A stretch of DNA of 64,000 nt from an uncultured Paracoccaceae bacterium (GTDB lineage Bacteria; Pseudomonadota; Alphaproteobacteria; Rhodobacterales; Rhodobacteraceae): the NCBI GenBank assembly GCA_938002605.1, contig CALLAF010000030.1, positions 1 through 64,000 on the forward strand. Direction: 5' to 3'. Every line of letters starts with the position of its first letter. The first letter of the stretch is position 1. The position numbers and the translations under genes are program-made. Below the pieces are notes generated by a model. That model did not search any database, was not told the DNA's origin, and worked only from the letters and a program-made list of their open reading frames with translations. Below are positions 39,694-59,006 of the stretch, piece by piece.

Positions 39694-41808
39694 CTACGGA
39701 TCGTTTGGTAGTGGAAAGCGATTTAAGATTGCATCAAGAGTTTCACGCGTTTCTTGTGATCGCGAAAGTAACTCCCGACTGCTCGCAAGTGGTGTACCGG
39801 ATTGGGTGTTATCCTCACGGGACAGCATCGCCTCGGAGGCCGCTTGAAGTATTGGGTCTGAGGATGTCGTAAGCTGCTGCCAATTTCCTTGCCCCCAACT
39901 TGCGATTTCGTCCGCGCCTTGGCCTGCCCCCTGACTGTCGTCTAAAACAGTAGGGGGTAGAGGAATTTCAGCGTCAGCTGGAAGTGTTTGCACTGCATCA
40001 TCTGGCGGTACAAATGCAGTTGCGCGAGTTAGGAAACCCAGGGCACTCAGGCGCTCAGAAACCGAGTGCCGGGCGACCGCAGAAAACCTTTCTGGTGGAT
40101 GATCAAACGCGAAAACAAGAAATGTGGCATCGTCTAAAGAACGAACAGCGCGCATTGCGAGTTCATCATTCAATTTTTGCACGCGCTCTGGTCCTAAAAC
40201 GACGCTTTCGTCCATGATCAACTTTGCGGCCTGATCGATTTCACCTTGCATGAAATACGCACGCGCCTGAGCGTAGGCGAGATCCCCAGAAACTGGTAAA
40301 TGCGCGTTTTCAAATCGAAGCGCATCTACGAGCACATAGTCCGATTGTGTGATTTCAGTATTGTTTTCAATGGCGACATTCAAGAATTCAATCATAACCT
40401 TTGGGGTCACGCGCGGATCTTCTCTCGCCACAACAGCGAGCGCGCTTTGCACGCCGGCATCGTCACCCATTGCATGATCCAAAGACGCCTCTGCTAGGGT
40501 AGTATCAAGTGTTTTTGCCACATCATCGCGACTGACATCTAGCGCTTGGAGTGCGCCGTCATGATCCCCAAGTCGGACAAATCGCTCGGAAAGCATTGGA
40601 CCAATATGGCGCTGCAAATGGACGGGCAGCGCCTTGAAACCGCTCAGCGTAGCGGCGCGATTCAGCTGTGCGTCCAGCGGCCCATCACCATTGGCGAGCA
40701 AGGCCCAAAGTGCGACAGGTGACGCACAGCTAACCTGCTCCTCAAAAAGCTCTTTCGCGACAAGATCACCATCGATGATCTGCGCGATTTGAGATAAATA
40801 TATGCGCTCCTGAGAATGAACCCCATCTAACTCCAACGTCCGCAGCGCCTCTTGGCCGAATCCAAAGTACACGTAAGTTTGGGCCAGTCGCAGAACAGCG
40901 GTTTCATCGGCCAGGCCAGCGTCTGTGAATACATCGCGCCGTCCAAGCGCAATTTGCGCCGAAAACGGCAATTCGTTCCCCCAATTGGGCACGTCAAAGT
41001 ATAACGCGGGCAAGCACTGTTTGCCCGTTTGCGTTGCAAGGGTTGGCGGGTCTTCTGGGATTGCGGCGATATCGCGATTTGTACGTGTTCCGATTCCGGG
41101 AACAGCGGCTTGAGCGCCGTGCAATTCTTCGCGAACCGTCGCTTCAATGTCACCTGCATCCGTTCTCACTGGCAGATCTTGTTCCAATACCCCCTGCGAC
41201 AACCCCTCGGCTAGGCTTGCGACTATTGACGTCTCTAGTTCATTCAACTCATCTTCAAATGCTGTTGCACTTCTTTCTGACGCCAGAACCTCCTGCGGCA
41301 AATTTGCTTCAACGTCTTGCACTCGCGGCAACTCAATTTGCGGCACCCCGATCACGGGAAAGATCGCCTGATCGGGGAAAACATAGGGTTGTCCGACTGG
41401 CCGCGCCGCGGTTTCGGACGTGTCCAGACGGCGTTCAAATGGCGAACTTGGCAATGGCGGCCCGTCGGATACATCAATCACGAGAACATCATCGTCCACA
41501 AGAAATGCTTCGGCCCGGCAATCGCAGGGCACAGAAAACTGCAATTCTCCGGCGCGCGGTTGGGTTATTTCCGCGATGCGGTCCTTTGGTATGAGATCGT
41601 AAAACCCTCGCAAATCATAGTCTTTGTCCGAAGGTAATCGTAGTAAATACCCGGCCTCAGCCCGGCCTAAAACCCAATCTGTTCCTGGTGTAATGCGAAA
41701 GACCATCCGCGTGAATTGCGGATGTTCGCCAGTTTGCACATGAATCGGTGCGGCTGCCACGGCCAACGGCAAAATGACCAGAACCAGCGAACAAATGAAA
41801 CGCTTCAT
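39694..41808 (-). CDS. Large periplasmic repeat protein coupled to motA, MotC-like candidate
   Basis: A 704-residue exported protein with no confident family assignment. From the ATG at 41808, which overlaps the motA stop by 4 bp, it has a signal peptide (MKRFICSLVLVILPLAVAAA). Residues about 20-120 look strand-rich (FTRMVFRITPGTDWVLG), with two Cys (PCDCRAE) that could form a disulfide. A Pro/Glu-rich linker follows, then from about 280 to 610 helical hairpins of TPR-like spacing (AQARAYFMQGEIDQAAKLI is the clearest). The tail is low-complexity. In Sinorhizobium, MotC is a periplasmic motility protein and MotE its chaperone; coupling to motA and a MotE-like gene nearby suggest a similar stator role. 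This is inference. Confidence 0.72.
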   Translation of the reverse strand: MKRFICSLVLVILPLAVAAAPIHVQTGEHPQFTRMVFRITPGTDWVLGRAEAGYLLRLPSDKDYDLRGFYDLIPKDRIAEITQPRAGELQFSVPCDCRAEAFLVDDDVLVIDVSDGPPLPSSPFERRLDTSETAARPVGQPYVFPDQAIFPVIGVPQIELPRVQDVEANLPQEVLASERSATAFEDELNELETSIVASLAEGLSQGVLEQDLPVRTDAGDIEATVREELHGAQAAVPGIGTRTNRDIAAIPEDPPTLATQTGKQCLPALYFDVPNWGNELPFSAQIALGRRDVFTDAGLADETAVLRLAQTYVYFGFGQEALRTLELDGVHSQERIYLSQIAQIIDGDLVAKELFEEQVSCASPVALWALLANGDGPLDAQLNRAATLSGFKALPVHLQRHIGPMLSERFVRLGDHDGALQALDVSRDDVAKTLDTTLAEASLDHAMGDDAGVQSALAVVAREDPRVTPKVMIEFLNVAIENNTEITQSDYVLVDALRFENAHLPVSGDLAYAQARAYFMQGEIDQAAKLIMDESVVLGPERVQKLNDELAMRAVRSLDDATFLVFAFDHPPERFSAVARHSVSERLSALGFLTRATAFVPPDDAVQTLPADAEIPLPPTVLDDSQGAGQGADEIASWGQGNWQQLTTSSDPILQAASEAMLSREDNTQSGTPLASSRELLSRSQETRETLDAILNRFPLPNDP

Positions 41809-42674
41809 GCCGCACTTTGCTTTGTCGCCTTCAAAGCATCCTCCATATCCGCGAAACTTGGACGGTAGGCACCTGGCATGTTCTGGCGTCCAACCTCGAT
41901 ACAAATGTTTGGCGCATGCTCATACAGGTTCGCGACCAAGACTTCGCGGATCAATTGATGAAAGTGCGCGTCTTCTTCGATTACCGCTTTTACCTTGACC
42001 GAAAATGGGCCGACCAGACCGTAGGCCAGAAACACCCCCAAAAATGTACCAACTAGCGCACCACCAATGAGTTTCCCAAGCACTTCAGGGGGCTGATCAA
42101 TCGATCCCATCGTCTTAATAACCCCGAGCACCGCGGCCACAATTCCCAATGCGGGCAAGCCATCCGCGACAGTTTGCAGCGCATGTGTCGAATGCATTTT
42201 ATGGTGCAGGGTTGCCTCGATTCTCTTTTCCAAAATTTCTTCGACCTGATGTGGATCATCGTAATTCATCGATGCGGATCGCAAGGTGTCGCAAATCAGC
42301 GCAATGGCTTCGCCGTCATCTAAAATCTTAGGGTACTTACCAAAAATTGTCGACGAATCAGGTGCTTCGATATGGCTTTCAAGTGAAACCGGATTGGTGC
42401 GCGCGACGCGAATGAGTTCAAACAGGAGGCACAAAACATCGCTGTAGTCTTGTGCGTTCCACTTCGGGCCCTTGAACACCTTTCCAATATCTTTGATCGT
42501 GTGTTTGATCGCGGCGCCATCATTACTAATCGTGAAGGCCCCGATTGCCGCGCCACCAATCATGATCATCTCAAATGGCAACGTCTTAAGGATAATCCCC
42601 ATTTTCCCGCCAGCTAAGAGATAGCCGCCGAACACTGTTACAAAAACGAAAACAACACCAATCAAGCCAACCAT
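41805..42674 (-). CDS. motA: Flagellar motor stator protein MotA
   Basis: MotA forms the pentameric stator ring around MotB and converts proton flow into torque. The 289-residue protein has four membrane segments: two near the N-terminus (about 4-22 and 33-50) and two later (about 170-190 and 205-225). LPALGIVAAVLGVIKTMG contains the conserved Pro of TM3 and FLAYGLVGPFSVKVK that of TM4. The cytosolic loop with charged residues (about 60-165) contacts FliG. AAGGGG precedes the ATG at 9 bases. motB is over 9 kb away, unlike the usual motAB pair. Confidence 0.96.
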   Translation of the reverse strand: MVGLIGVVFVFVTVFGGYLLAGGKMGIILKTLPFEMIMIGGAAIGAFTISNDGAAIKHTIKDIGKVFKGPKWNAQDYSDVLCLLFELIRVARTNPVSLESHIEAPDSSTIFGKYPKILDDGEAIALICDTLRSASMNYDDPHQVEEILEKRIEATLHHKMHSTHALQTVADGLPALGIVAAVLGVIKTMGSIDQPPEVLGKLIGGALVGTFLGVFLAYGLVGPFSVKVKAVIEEDAHFHQLIREVLVANLYEHAPNICIEVGRQNMPGAYRPSFADMEDALKATKQSAA

Positions 42675-52499: not shown

Positions 52500-53318
52500 T
52501 CAAATATCCGAGCGTAGCAAAATGATTTCGATCCGGTTATTGCGCAGCGCGGTTGCATCCGCGACCGCGGGCGCGCGGTCGCCCGCCCCTGTCAACCGCG
52601 CGATGCGCCGTGGATCTAGGCCCCCGGCCTCTAGCATGAGCCGCATCTGGGCGGCCCGTCCGCTTGACAGTTCCCAAATCGGATTATCCACAGCAAGAAC
52701 CGTTGTCGCACGCAGATGCCCTTTGATGACGACAGGGTTTTGCACCACATCGAACAATCGCGCCAATATTACCGCTATTTCAGCTGTTATTGGATGCGGA
52801 GTAGTGGTGCCTGGCAGGTCAAATATTTCGATGATCAGCCCTTCATCCGTGAGCCGGGTCACGATATGACGCAGCGCTTGGTCGGACACCATGCTTTCTC
52901 CGCCGGCCCCCATGAGGACCGCCTCGATATCGCGCAGCGCAGCGACCTGTGCCGCCACAGCTGCTGCTTCACCTGCAGTTGCCTCTTCGACGCGGACGGG
53001 GTTTTGCCCAATCGTCGGCTGGCTGATGCCCGTCCCGCTTTGGGCAAGCGAATCTTCAGTAAAGATGTCCGCGCCGCCAAATGCGCCAGAACCACCCCCA
53101 GAAATCCGGTTAATCGGAATCGTCGGTGAAAAATAATCAGCAATCCCTTTGCGTTGTTGTTCGGTCGTCGCGTTCAACAGCCACATCAGCATAAAGAAGG
53201 CCATCATTGCCGTTACAAAATCGGCATAGGCCACTTTCCATGCCCCGCCATGGTGCCCACCACCGCCAACAACTTTTTTACGTTTAATAATCACCGGAGC
53301 ATTGGAATTTGCGCCCAT
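52500..53318 (-). CDS. motB: Flagellar motor stator protein MotB
   Basis: MotB anchors the stator to peptidoglycan and carries the proton-binding Asp. The 272-residue protein has a cytosolic basic N-terminus with a Gly/His stretch (VVGGGGHHGGAWK), then one membrane segment VAYADFVTAMMAFFMLMWLL in which Asp33 is the expected proton carrier. YFSPTIPINRISGGG is the plug/linker region. The C-terminal OmpA-like domain (about 145-270) is recognisable by VVIKGHLRATT, WELSSGRAAQMRLML and RNNRIEIILL, though it departs from the standard GHTD motif. It is 92 bp upstream of flgE, far from motA. Confidence 0.95.
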   Translation of the reverse strand: MGANSNAPVIIKRKKVVGGGGHHGGAWKVAYADFVTAMMAFFMLMWLLNATTEQQRKGIADYFSPTIPINRISGGGSGAFGGADIFTEDSLAQSGTGISQPTIGQNPVRVEEATAGEAAAVAAQVAALRDIEAVLMGAGGESMVSDQALRHIVTRLTDEGLIIEIFDLPGTTTPHPITAEIAVILARLFDVVQNPVVIKGHLRATTVLAVDNPIWELSSGRAAQMRLMLEAGGLDPRRIARLTGAGDRAPAVADATALRNNRIEIILLRSDI

Positions 53319-53409: not shown

Positions 53410-53817
53410 TTAGTGATCAGCGGCCTCTTGCTCGCAAAGAACGCCGCCTTTGGGGACAAACGGTGCGCCAAGATGCGCATCTATTTCGGCACGAATGGCA
53501 TCTAACGTATCTCGCGCAGCCAAAAGCGCACGTGTTAGCGCAACAAAGGGAACGCCAAATTCACCACGTTCATCGCAGGCGCGCAAATCTTCTTCTAGCG
53601 CGTGCAGATCACGCCGCGCCGTATACAGCCGCCCCCAGATACGCCCAAGTTCGTCATCGCGCGGCAATATCCGGTCGGCCAAGCGATCAAGCAGCGCTTT
53701 TTGCCTTGCGGTCGCAGCATGGTGTTGATCATGCACCTCGGTTTCTAGCTTCAATTGCAGCACTACGATCCGGTCGATCAGATCGGCGGCCGCCAAAGGG
53801 ACAAGTATATTGTTCAT
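53410..53817 (-). CDS. DUF6165 family protein
   Basis: A 135-residue soluble helical protein. ILVPLAAADLIDRIVVLQLKLE at the N-terminus is the recognisable segment of DUF6165, a family of unknown function in which LVP...ELIDKI..L..K is conserved. The ATG at 53817 (MNNILVPL) is preferred over the track start eight codons upstream. It ends close to the motB promoter region on the same strand but belongs to no evident operon. Upstream is a 360-bp gap toward divergent idi. A flagellar role is possible by position only. Confidence 0.75.
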   Translation of the reverse strand: MNNILVPLAAADLIDRIVVLQLKLETEVHDQHHAATARQKALLDRLADRILPRDDELGRIWGRLYTARRDLHALEEDLRACDERGEFGVPFVALTRALLAARDTLDAIRAEIDAHLGAPFVPKGGVLCEQEAADH

Positions 53818-54181
53818 GCCAAACCTTCTCATTCGCCCCAACGCTACGGTGAAAACCTTTCCGGAATGTGTTCAAAAACCCGCTGAATGGCCAAAGCCCA
53901 CCGTCGAATCCAAACGTGGATGCGACAAAAAGTCAAAAGAGGCACCGTACGGTGCCCCAGTTAAACCTCTTGATCGCGCGCGCCGTCTGTGCCTGAACAA
54001 GCGGCGCTGGCCAAAACGCGCTGTCGCACAGCGCCGCGCCCCATTTCTTCAGTACGCCAACATTTGCCGTAAGCGCTCTAAAAAATGGTGTGTTAGGGGC
54101 GCGCAAAATGCGCATCCTCGGATGGGGTGCAATTTCACCAATCCGTCATTATAGCTAGGCGCACACATCGGGGCAGTGGTT
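53818..54181. other. Intergenic region with two inverted repeats, no gene seen
   Basis: This 360-bp gap between divergent DUF6165 and idi genes has no supported ORF. It contains a perfect 16-bp palindrome ggcaccgtacggtgcc (53941-53956) and a 7-bp hairpin gcgctgt-cgc-acagcgc (54018-54034). The palindrome could be an operator for a dimeric regulator; the hairpin could belong to a transcript leader. Track ORFs here (53810-54154 plus, 53933-54115 minus) show no family features. Confidence 0.5.
53941..53956. repeat. 16-bp perfect palindrome
   Basis: ggcaccgtacggtgcc is fully self-complementary and lies about 125 bases upstream of the DUF6165 start and 225 upstream of idi. A second, outer pairing (aagagg 53937-53942 with cctctt 53966-53971) is possible as an alternative fold. 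Confidence 0.7.
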
Positions 54182-55383: not shown

Positions 55384-56532
55384 TTGTCTGACAAACGGGA
55401 AGCCAAAGCGCAGCCGCAATTTTCGCAGCCAATTCGGCAAATCATATTCATGCTCGTCGTTCTTGGGCTGGTAGGGGCTGGGTTTTACCTTGGACTTAGC
55501 CAGTTAATGGCGATCTACAATTCCAACCCCTATTTGAACGCTGTAATCCTGACGGTGTTTACGCTTGGGGTTTTGTCTTGCGTTAATCAGGTTTTCCAAC
55601 TGATGAAATCAGTCGGTTGGATCGAACATTTTGCCAAGGAAACAGGTGGGCATAACTTTACCAAAGCGCCGTCACTGCTTGCGCCTTTGGCGACGTTGCT
55701 GCGGTCGCGTGGCGCGCGCACGCAAGTCTCATCCAGCTCTGGGCGCTCTATCCTAGATTCCGTTGCACAACGGATCGACGAAGATCGGGAAATCACACGG
55801 TACATCGGGAATGTCTTGATTTTCCTTGGGCTTTTGGGAACATTCTATGGGCTTGCAACAACGGTGCCTGCCCTGGTGGATACCATTCGATCGCTTAATC
55901 CCGGCGAAGGCGAAAGCGGCGCGGATATTTTCGCGCGCTTACAATCCGGACTTGAGGCACAGCTAGGCGGAATGGGCACCGCTTTCTCTAGCTCGCTTTT
56001 GGGGCTTGCTGGATCGCTGATTGTCGGGTTGCTTGAACTTTTTGCTGGCCACGGTCAGAACCGTTTCTATCGCGAACTTGAAGAATGGCTATCGACAATC
56101 ACGCGTGTCGGAATTGATGGCGAAGAAGGCAGTGGTGCCGGTATCGGTGGGCTAGATGCATTTGCGGATCAGCTGAGCGAATTGATGGACACGATGCAGA
56201 TGACCATCGGCCAGAACGACGCTGATCGCGAACAAACGGACCAACGCTTTGCCAAACTGGCAGCCGCAGTTGAACAGCTTGCACATATTACGACGGCCAA
56301 CAGCAATAACAATGTCTTTGAACGGATCGCAGAAGGTCAAGAAAAACTGATCAAAAAGCTTGATGATAGCGGCATGGAAGGCATCGATGCCGAAAGCCGG
56401 ATGCGCCTGCGGTCAATTGACGTGCAAATGTTGCGCATCCTTGAAGAAATGTCCGCTGGACGCCAAGAAGCAATCGGCGATCTGCGTATGGAACTGGCTA
56501 ATCTGGCCAGTGCAATCCGGGAACGGGGCTAA
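55384..56532 (+). CDS. MotA/TolQ/ExbB-type proton channel protein (orphan stator A subunit)
   Basis: A 382-residue inner-membrane protein with hydrophobic segments at about 19-42, 52-73, 140-162 and 197-222. The last two (IGNVLIFLGLLGTFYGLATTVPALV and GMGTAFSSSLLGLAGSLIVG) match the conserved TM2-TM3 pair of the MotA/TolQ/ExbB family. Unlike TolQ and ExbB it has a long C-terminal cytosolic helical tail (about 230-382), which suggests a partner or DNA/protein target inside the cell. Start is TTG with AAGGA 8 bases upstream. Three bases separate it from the B subunit, so both are coexpressed. Function is unknown; it is not the flagellar MotA. Confidence 0.82.
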   Translation: MSDKREAKAQPQFSQPIRQIIFMLVVLGLVGAGFYLGLSQLMAIYNSNPYLNAVILTVFTLGVLSCVNQVFQLMKSVGWIEHFAKETGGHNFTKAPSLLAPLATLLRSRGARTQVSSSSGRSILDSVAQRIDEDREITRYIGNVLIFLGLLGTFYGLATTVPALVDTIRSLNPGEGESGADIFARLQSGLEAQLGGMGTAFSSSLLGLAGSLIVGLLELFAGHGQNRFYRELEEWLSTITRVGIDGEEGSGAGIGGLDAFADQLSELMDTMQMTIGQNDADREQTDQRFAKLAAAVEQLAHITTANSNNNVFERIAEGQEKLIKKLDDSGMEGIDAESRMRLRSIDVQMLRILEEMSAGRQEAIGDLRMELANLASAIRERG

Positions 56533-56535
56533 CCC

Positions 56536-58242
56536 ATGGCGCTAAGCCGCAGAAAATCCAACCGTTTTCAAAACGCCATCTGGCCGGGCTTTGTTGACGC
56601 GATGACTGGGCTTTTGCTGGTGCTGATGTTTGTATTAACCATTTTTATGGTGATCCAATTTGTGCTGCGCCAAACGATTACTGGCCAAGAAAGCGAACTT
56701 GAAGCGCTCAATATTGAGGTCGCGGCGCTGGCCAGCACCCTTGGGCTCGCGCAGGATCGCAACACTGCTTTGTCAGCCGATCTTGATGCTGCCAACACCG
56801 AAGCCACCCGACAAGCCAATCGGATCGTGTCGCTTTTAGCCGAGCGGGACGCACAGGACGCAGCATTAGCCCAAGCACAGTCCGACATCACAGAATTCGA
56901 AGCCCAAGTTGCAGGGTTGCTATCAGACCGGGCGACCGCGCTTGCAAATATTACCGCGCTCGAAGACGAAAAATCGCAGCTCTTGTCCGACCAAGAGGCA
57001 CTGAACCTCGCCTTGGCGCAAGCCCGCGATGAAATCGATAGTAGTGCCGAAGAAGCGCGCCTTGCCGCCGCGCGCCGCGAAGCACTTGAATCGATGGTTG
57101 CTGATCTGGAAACCGTGGCGTCAGAACAGGCAGCGGAACTATCAGAGTTAGAAATCGCACAGCTTGCCGATGCCGCCGCCGCCCAGGCTCTGCGCGATCG
57201 GCTTGCCGACGCAGACACCGAATTAACGGCAATGACCCTGAATCTTGAACAACAGCGCCGCGAAGCCGAGGAAACGCTAACCTTGCTGGCCGCCGCCCAT
57301 GCTGCGCAATCTGAATTGGACGCGCTGCGCAATCGAGCGGCAGGGGAAAACGACGCGCTGCAACGCGAATTGGCCGAAGCACGCGCCGCATTGGCACAGG
57401 TGCAAGGCGATCAGGATGTGCAGACCTCAGAGGCCGCGCGCCAAGCCGAACTTCTTGCCATGGCAAACGACGCCCTTGCCGCAGAAGAAGCGCTTTCGGC
57501 AGAAAGCCAGCGCCAAGTTGCATTGATGAACGAACAGATCGCTGAAATGCGGGGGCAAGTCGCCAACTTGCAAAGCCTGCTCAACCTCGCCGAAGAATCC
57601 GACCGCGAGGCGCAGGTCCAGATCGAAACGCTTGGATCGCAGCTTAACACCGCATTGGCCCGTGTCGTGTCCGAAGAACGCCAGCGTCGCGCCCTAGAAG
57701 AGGCCGAACGTGTCCGACTTGAAGCCGAAGCTGCACGTCTTGCCGAAGAAGCCGAGCGCCTGCAGGCCGAAGCCCAGAACCTTGAGCAATTTAAATCCGA
57801 TTTCTTTGGCGAACTGCGCCAAATTCTTGAAGGCCAAGACCGCGTGAGGATCGAAGGCGACCGGTTCGTATTTTCTTCGGAAGTTCTTTTTGAGCCCGGC
57901 AGTGCGCGGCTATCTGCATTGGGCGAAGCTGAAATCGCAAATATCGCAGGTATTTTACGTAGCATCGCGGATGATATCCCATCCGGAATTGATTGGGTGA
58001 TCCGTGTCGATGGGCATACCGACAACATCCCGGTTGGCGGTGGCGGGCGCTACCGTGACAATTGGGAACTGAGCCAAGCGCGCGCGCTTTCTGTTGTACG
58101 GTTTATGTCCGAAGATCTAGATATCGACCCACGGCGTTTGGCAGCAAATGGGTTTGGTGAATTCCAACCTATCAACCCCGCAGACACGCCCGAAGCGCGC
58201 GCGCAAAACCGGCGGATTGAGCTCAAATTGACAGAGCGATAA
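56536..58242 (+). CDS. MotB-like OmpA-domain protein with long coiled coil (orphan stator B subunit)
   Basis: A 568-residue membrane protein with a short basic cytosolic N-terminus and one membrane segment (WPGFVDAMTGLLLVLMFVLT, about 16-40). Asp21 lies where MotB's proton-carrying Asp sits. Residues about 50-430 form an uninterrupted Ala/Glu/Gln/Arg-rich coiled coil in the periplasm, and about 440-568 an OmpA-type peptidoglycan-binding domain (VLFEPGSARLSALGEAEI, IRVDGHTDNIPVGGG, LSQARALSVVRFM, QNRRIELKLTER). The coiled coil is far longer than in MotB or TolR, enough to span the periplasm. With the A subunit it should form a proton-driven rotary unit of unknown purpose. Confidence 0.85.
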   Translation: MALSRRKSNRFQNAIWPGFVDAMTGLLLVLMFVLTIFMVIQFVLRQTITGQESELEALNIEVAALASTLGLAQDRNTALSADLDAANTEATRQANRIVSLLAERDAQDAALAQAQSDITEFEAQVAGLLSDRATALANITALEDEKSQLLSDQEALNLALAQARDEIDSSAEEARLAAARREALESMVADLETVASEQAAELSELEIAQLADAAAAQALRDRLADADTELTAMTLNLEQQRREAEETLTLLAAAHAAQSELDALRNRAAGENDALQRELAEARAALAQVQGDQDVQTSEAARQAELLAMANDALAAEEALSAESQRQVALMNEQIAEMRGQVANLQSLLNLAEESDREAQVQIETLGSQLNTALARVVSEERQRRALEEAERVRLEAEAARLAEEAERLQAEAQNLEQFKSDFFGELRQILEGQDRVRIEGDRFVFSSEVLFEPGSARLSALGEAEIANIAGILRSIADDIPSGIDWVIRVDGHTDNIPVGGGGRYRDNWELSQARALSVVRFMSEDLDIDPRRLAANGFGEFQPINPADTPEARAQNRRIELKLTER

Positions 58243-58316
58243 AGTCACACAAACACTTGCGTCGCAGGGGCATTTGATGCTTGGATTGCACAGTCCATTT
58301 GTGCAGGGCAAGCATC

Positions 58317-59006
58317 ATGACAGACCTATCAACCGACTCCCAAACTTCGGCTCAACGCCTGCATAATAGTCCCGACTGGCTGTATCTTCTGCGTGAGATT
58401 GACGCGCTTTATCGGTTTGGCTCGGACGGCGGTAGTGGCCCTATTCGGAGCCACCGGAAACGTGTCCGCGATCGGCTTTCGGCGGCGATGACGCAGAACC
58501 CTGAATTACGCCACCGCTCTGCGTTAACAAAACCGGTAACGGCCCATTTCCCGCGCGCGTTGGATTTAGGGGAACGCAGCACGATGCAGGGGATTGCCCG
58601 CGCGCTGCGAGAAGTCAAAGACGCGCTGACGTGGGAATACGGATACGAAAAAGTCACAAAATCCCTGAGCCAAAAATACGCATACTGCGAAATTCTTGGC
58701 CCCCAAGGACCTGTGCAATGCGATACGCTTATTTTGGGGTTTGTCCTATTCGTGCCCAACACAACCTACCCGCAGCACAGCCACCAAGACATTGAAGAAA
58801 GCTATGTTTCGGTGGCTGGCGCGTGGTCTGAAAACAACAATGCGGTCTATGCGCCGGGGTCGCTCATTTACAATCGCGCGGGCGACGAACACCGCATTAC
58901 GACAGGCGACCGCGATCCATGCCTGTTGGCTTATGCTTGGGTTGGTCCAGCGGAACGGCTGGCATCGCCTCAGATGAAGCTCAGTTCACCACGCAAGACA
59001 AAATAG
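58317..59006 (+). CDS. dddL: Dimethylsulfoniopropionate lyase DddL
   Basis: DddL cleaves DMSP into dimethyl sulfide and acrylate. The 229-residue protein has the C-terminal cupin of this family: YPQHSHQDIEESYVSVAGAW gives candidate metal ligands His154, His156, Glu160/161 and Tyr163, and NRAGDEHRITTGDRDP supplies His192. The N-terminal helical half (SGPIRSHRKRVRDRL, LTWEYGYEKV, KYAYCEILGP) is also DddL-like. The ATG at 58317 gives MTDLSTDSQ; the TTG track start is not needed. It stands alone on the plus strand, 74 bp after the stator-like B gene, with no acrylate-metabolism genes beside it. DddL versus DddQ/W rests on length and the N-terminal half. Confidence 0.87.
   Translation: MTDLSTDSQTSAQRLHNSPDWLYLLREIDALYRFGSDGGSGPIRSHRKRVRDRLSAAMTQNPELRHRSALTKPVTAHFPRALDLGERSTMQGIARALREVKDALTWEYGYEKVTKSLSQKYAYCEILGPQGPVQCDTLILGFVLFVPNTTYPQHSHQDIEESYVSVAGAWSENNNAVYAPGSLIYNRAGDEHRITTGDRDPCLLAYAWVGPAERLASPQMKLSSPRKTK

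Follow-up and report, generated by a model that had tools for sequence, protein, structure and literature searches.

In stators of the TolQ/ExbB type, the channel subunit (A) has three transmembrane (TM) helices and its partner (B) is short. The wider MotA/TolQ/ExbB superfamily is recognized by polar Thr or Ser residues in TM3 and TM4 of the A subunit plus an Asp residue of the partner. ZorA and ZorB of the Zorya anti-phage systems form a related pair; the Asp residue of ZorB is crucial for function, and His, Thr, Leu, and Arg residues of ZorB have been implicated in peptidoglycan binding (PMC11890865). The PRK09039 family of peptidoglycan-binding proteins comprises the NCBIfam models NF006542-NF006546, and neither a structure nor a published mechanism was found in the literature under that name. 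Here I describe a gene pair in a 64,000-nucleotide stretch of DNA from an uncultured Paracoccaceae bacterium (the whole stretch analyzed is called the window). The pair itself is not new in the databases. What is new is the kinship of a core motor with ZorAB, a third gene, and a heptad rule for the length of the B protein.

A Stator-Type Gene Pair

As the first-pass annotation had it, two ORFs lie 3 bp apart on the forward strand of the window. Gene A (55384..56532, +) encodes a protein of 382 residues and gene B (56536..58242, +) a protein of 568 residues. The start codon of gene A is TTG, preceded by an AAGGA box, and the length of 382 residues is matched by close orthologs. The A protein has the four hydrophobic helices that had been proposed. 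Hydropathy locates TM1 and TM2 (residues 20-38 and 53-71; 55441..55596, +), which are also AF2 helices, TM3 (residues 141-162; 55804..55869, +), which contains the motif FLGLLGTFYGLATT, and TM4 (residues 204-222; 55993..56049, +). The cytosolic tail was likewise confirmed; in the AF2 model, which shows long TM3 and TM4 helices, it is a helical region of about 140 residues (residues 244-382; 56113..56529, +). The AF2 models are of single chains and of moderate quality (A, mean pLDDT 74 and pTM 0.54; B, mean pLDDT 74-75 and pTM 0.33). Thr153 and Thr160 in TM3 and Ser204 and Ser211 in TM4 are invariant in an alignment of 42 A proteins. The tail varies in length between the orders, and since it is much shorter in some of them, a single conserved cytosolic target for A is uncertain. 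Across the loci, the length of the A tail is correlated with that of the B coiled coil (rho 0.57 class-wide and 0.41 in Rhodobacteraceae, uncorrected for phylogeny).

The B protein has a WPGFVDA motif at the membrane edge, whose Asp21 (codon 56596..56598, +) is the proposed ion carrier. It is followed by one TM helix assigned by hydropathy (residues 26-44; 56611..56667, +), a coiled coil (residues 49-430; 56680..57825, +), and an OmpA-type peptidoglycan-binding domain (residues 441-568; 57856..58239, +). Alignment, Foldseek, and Pfam (57.5 bits, residues 451-559) agree on this last domain, which is the only Pfam domain found in B; the MotB plug domain PF13677 is absent. The single TM helix, Asp21, and the OmpA domain had all been read correctly at the outset. 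All 37 aligned B proteins share an invariant Asp21, which was never lost among these homologs. Trp16 and Gly18 are also invariant in this set, and so are H494, T495, D496, L512, R516, R559, and R560 of the OmpA domain. Compared with ZorB (PMC11890865), the Asp and the peptidoglycan-contact residues (His, Thr, Leu, Arg, and Arg) are all conserved in B. T153, T160, S204, and S211 of A together with D21 of B are the polar residues and partner Asp of the superfamily, and the reading as a stator pair is supported.

The pair had been called an orphan, which it is not: nearly all members of the class Alphaproteobacteria have it, and its B protein falls into an annotated family. The score of B on NF006542 ("peptidoglycan-binding protein" of the PRK09039 family) is 734.5 bits, well above the cut-off of 388. 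The B proteins of other orders pass the sibling models NF006543-NF006545, and no NCBIfam model covers A.

Gene Order and the Third Gene

In the other orders of the class, the pair ends a co-oriented block. Its genes were named by reading the sequences, and I take them to encode transketolase, GAPDH, PGK, aldolase, ThiE, EF-P, and inositol monophosphatase. The order at the end of the block is EF-P, inositol monophosphatase, the third gene (where present), A, and B. In Rhodobacteraceae, the pair lies beside chaC, clpA, and gloB. Directly downstream of B in the window is a gene for a DddL-like DMSP lyase (58281-59006, +; PF16867, 166 bits), which is not a part of the motor.

The third gene lies upstream of A on the same strand, at a distance of -11 to 115 bp, in 20 of the 26 class loci outside Rhodobacteraceae. 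Its product begins with a signal-like sequence and continues with a long linker rich in Pro, Lys, and Ala; in its OmpA-like end, the Arg is kept but the HTD motif has given way to another sequence, typically YAS. These features would suit a second Tol-like system, with a motor-driven force transducer in the periplasm that stabilizes the outer membrane; outside Rhodobacteraceae, this secreted Pro-rich protein would be the transducer or the outer partner. However, the third gene is missing beside the pair in all 14 Rhodobacteraceae loci as well as in Rhizobiaceae-like and Acetobacteraceae-like loci, and a search for it in Rhodobacteraceae gave only weak, Pal-level matches. Conversely, three genomes (G093, G127, and G114) have kept the block and the third gene and have lost A and B. 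B is itself anchored to the wall, in contrast to TolR or ExbD, which act with TolA or TonB. In addition, A has four TM helices, not the three of an A subunit clustered with tolR, tolA, and pal, and the window's genome has tolQ and pal elsewhere, on contig C38 (and an exbB-type gene on C43). A second Tol-like system is thus unlikely, though it is the strongest of the alternatives.

The conserved block, and the three genomes that keep it together with the third gene in the absence of A and B, point to an A-B set that was probably inherited vertically from an ancient ancestor and to a third gene that may be a partner, albeit a dispensable one. The third gene found without A and B at the syntenic block (L234:7332-8256, L235:7583-8345, and L236:7735-8530) may have its own role.

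A Coiled Coil in Heptad Register

The long coiled coil of B claimed by the first-pass annotation was confirmed. The hydrophobic power of residues 49-430 peaks sharply at a period of 3.5, the windowed power exceeds that of 500 out of 500 shuffles, and one heptad phase is constant from residue 21 to approximately residue 384. The AF2 breaks at residues 197-205 and 290-301 were considered as hinges and rejected; the heptad phase runs through both, and the model is that of a single chain.

The length of the B protein ranges from 302 to 1157 residues across the loci. Is the register maintained? The distance from WPGFVD to the GDRF of the OmpA domain was taken modulo 7, which requires no alignment. 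The result is 5 in 18 of the 24 class loci and 1 or 2 in the remaining six. In Rhodobacteraceae, 39, 20, and 19 of the 88 distances are 5, 1, and 2, respectively (together 78 of 88), and a further set gives 5 in seven of the 12 cases. Between 5 and the offsets 1 and 2 lie steps of 3 or 4 residues, as is usual for the stutters and stammers of coiled coils. When only unique lengths are counted, the heptad signal beats all of the 20,000 uniform draws; the sequences are related and the draws are not independent, yet the distances scatter from about 190 to more than 900. Other periods (4-6 and 8-11) are flat, and the length of A past the TM3 motif, used as a control, has no heptad effect. No tandem repeat occurs in the DNA of the window's B gene through which slippage by heptads could be neutral. 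Counts of pairwise gaps (55% multiples of 7) are not the main evidence; since aligners favor gaps that keep the register, they were set aside and the length test was used instead. The simplest reading is that the coil may be a parallel dimeric coiled coil in which insertions and deletions survive only if the core seam is kept. Keeping the seam would keep the angle between the membrane helix and the wall anchor.

As a straight helix at 0.15 nm per residue, the coil of the window would measure 57 nm and the longest one about 145 nm. Thus, the coil cannot stand straight across the periplasm and presumably tilts, bends, or runs along the wall; the term "periplasm-spanning" used at first was inappropriate. 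It might be asked whether B is mainly a static wall tether, with a channel that is vestigial or rarely gated. The great and variable length of the coil would fit, but neither the Asp nor the Thr/Ser ring varies across the class, which makes a mere tether improbable.

Kinship with ZorAB

On the Pfam model PF01618 (MotA_ExbB), A of the window scores 17.2 bits, below the gathering cut-off of 22.9, and two A orthologs pass it (28.7 and 26.0 bits). The best matches of A in the defense libraries are ZorA models (padloc ZorA1, 38.6 bits). In profile-profile comparison with hhalign, the A family gave 97.8% over 203 columns for ZorA, 60% over 27 columns for TolQ, 78% for ExbB, and 12% for MotA. In the tree, the A family and ZorA are split from TolQ, ExbB, and MotA with a support of 100/100, a grouping that rests on long branches and is to be read with that caution. 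Foldseek searches of the PDB returned weak matches of A to ExbB, TolQ, and ZorA (best E 5e-3) and matches of B to MotS, MotB, OmpA, and ZorB; phmmer found no PDB match for A. It had been stated that known relatives do not show the combination seen here. This must be corrected, as ZorAB is a clear relative and also has a cytosolic tail.

The nearest profiles being those of ZorA and ZorB, the pair could be imagined as an anti-phage system resembling Zorya or as the remnant of a Zorya system. However, the score of 38.6 bits contrasts with the 814-1226 bits of real ZorA proteins; the genomic ZorAB pairs caught by the A profile are type III ZorA/ZorB (814-1226 bits for A and 379.8 bits for B). On the NCBIfam ZorA model, A scores 17.4 bits against a cut-off of 500. 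None of the eight neighboring proteins scanned is a Zorya partner (ZorC/ZorD or ZorE), and the pair is single-copy, syntenic, and class-wide, unlike a mobile defense island. Since the cut-offs were missed and no partner was present among the neighbors scanned, the pair is not read as Zorya, and this idea, largely refuted already, deserves very little credence. No strict orthology to a characterized stator was found. By its sequences, A-B looks like a vertically inherited sister family of ZorAB.

Distribution and the Flagellum

Of 147 relatives, 123 have a single copy of A; among the 122 genomes with at least 90% completeness, the count is 107. Two genomes have split matches. Some genomes lack A even by profile search, several of them from one family (f13), and some complete genomes have lost the pair. 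Of the same 122 genomes, 84 have fliF. A is carried by all 20 genomes of the window's genus that are listed as fliF-negative, several of which are 99-100% complete (G003, G006, G018, G019, G027, G036, G041, G043, G044, G046, and G048). On the other hand, fliF is present and A is missing in G079, G093, G101, and G127. Thus, the pair is independent of the flagellum, and its job is a non-flagellar one, as had been supposed. The flagellar motA (approximately 41805-42674, -; MotA1 equivalog) and motB (52500-53318, -; with the PF13677 plug domain) are indeed separate genes in the window. An accessory flagellar stator, suggested by the location of the window's pair about 2 kb from flagellar motB and near the flagellar cluster, is the least credible alternative, since the pair is kept in complete genomes without fliF, B lacks the plug domain of MotB, and in most other orders the neighbors of the pair are genes for glycolysis, EF-P, and inositol phosphatase.

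A few further observations were made. A 143-residue ORF upstream of flagellar motB (53410-53841, -) has no Pfam or NCBIfam match. A strongly reduced genome of 0.9 Mb (G349, locus L196) keeps the pair with an A of 258 residues and a B of 356 residues. In G406, which belongs to the f13 family that mostly lacks the pair, a variant pair lies beside EF-P (L197:8110-10635); the gene for a 255-residue B-like protein with WPGFVDA is located upstream of that for a long-tailed A of 563 residues. Weak A-profile matches of 324-349 residues (L198, L199, L203, and L204) in small genomes outside the class (families f79 and f119) form an unclassified MotA/ExbB-like group.

A Possible Envelope Motor

The motor class of the pair is well supported, and the analyses above show its anatomy, conservation, kinship, and register. 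The best explanation, which I consider probable, is that A-B belongs to the ZorA/ZorB branch and is a peptidoglycan-anchored rotary motor with 5:2 stoichiometry, driven by ions, that acts in envelope growth or division. For stoichiometry, rotation, ion, partner, and cellular role, I infer the following. A and B would assemble as a 5:2 motor, inherited vertically as a core alphaproteobacterial system. Ions, probably protons, would move past the ring of Thr and Ser residues in A (T153, T160, S204, and S211) by way of Asp21 of the B dimer. The OmpA domains would fix B in the cell wall so that it could not turn, and the A pentamer would then rotate around B. The B dimer would form a parallel coiled-coil shaft whose single heptad register extends between the membrane helix and the wall anchor; the length of the shaft could then drift and its rotational phase could not. 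The moving part would be the A ring with its bundle of cytosolic tails, acting on a partner for envelope growth or division at the inner membrane or in the cytoplasm.

I suggest more tentatively that this core envelope motor is a sister, and perhaps the source, of Zorya ZorAB, with its shaft phase-locked between the Asp and the wall anchor. Equally tentative is the corollary that a shaft of tens to more than a hundred heptads is free in length and fixed in angle, and would run along the cell wall.

A hint to the cellular role comes from Komagataeibacter hansenii, which has no flagella. Overexpression of motA (348 residues) or motB (321 residues), which are adjacent genes, gave elongated cells in chains, and the GFP fusions were polar (PMC6570709). 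In Acetobacteraceae-like genomes (family f59, tentatively assigned), A and B have 345 and 339 residues, and one of these B proteins passes NF006544. The MotB-GFP data are questionable, since a GFP at the C-terminus of MotB would lie in the periplasm, a compartment in which GFP often fails. The K. hansenii pair is a probable member of the A-B family in view of its architecture, its size, and its class. Because of this one overexpression study of a probable homolog, envelope growth or division is favored as the role, with modest confidence. The paper was the sole result of literature searches for a characterized function, essentiality, or a ZorAB-like housekeeping motor, and no structure or assay of the A-B family was found in the literature.

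Most of a large bacterial class, flagellated or not, keeps this probable ion-driven motor. If it acts on envelope growth or division, A-B joins Tol-Pal as an energized envelope system. It would also be a non-defense relative that may have given rise to Zorya by recruitment. The heptad rule, if true, predicts that an insertion of seven residues in B is tolerated and one of two residues is not, and that the angle between the wall anchor and the Asp is fixed.

Comparison with Known Systems

B scores as a member of the PRK09039 family, which provides only a name and whose models leave the A partner uncovered. TolQ/TolR and ExbB/ExbD share the fold of A according to Foldseek, and tolQ, pal, and exbB are separate genes in the same genome. 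MotA/MotB share a four-TM A subunit, a B subunit with one TM helix and an OmpA domain, and the Asp; in contrast, A-B has no MotB plug, reaches only the 12% noted above with hhalign, is independent of the flagellum, and coexists with separate motA and motB genes in the window. The K. hansenii pair has in common with A-B a flagella-less alphaproteobacterial host, adjacent genes, a four-TM A, a B with an OmpA domain, and similar sizes. In histidine kinases, the linker lengths of the signaling helices prefer multiples of seven, which was read as a preserved coiled-coil register (PMC13269768). Heptad-quantized lengths are thus common to both, although the kinase case concerns three heptads, and B, as a periplasmic motor subunit, has tens of them. 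ZorA/ZorB (types I-III) share with A-B the core of A, the architecture of B, the Asp, the Ser/Thr ring, the peptidoglycan-binding residues, and the cytosolic tail. The A-B family differs in its much shorter A tail, its long B coil, and its neighborhood, in which no Zorya partner genes were found. Zorya is a defense island, whereas A-B is a core single-copy gene pair.
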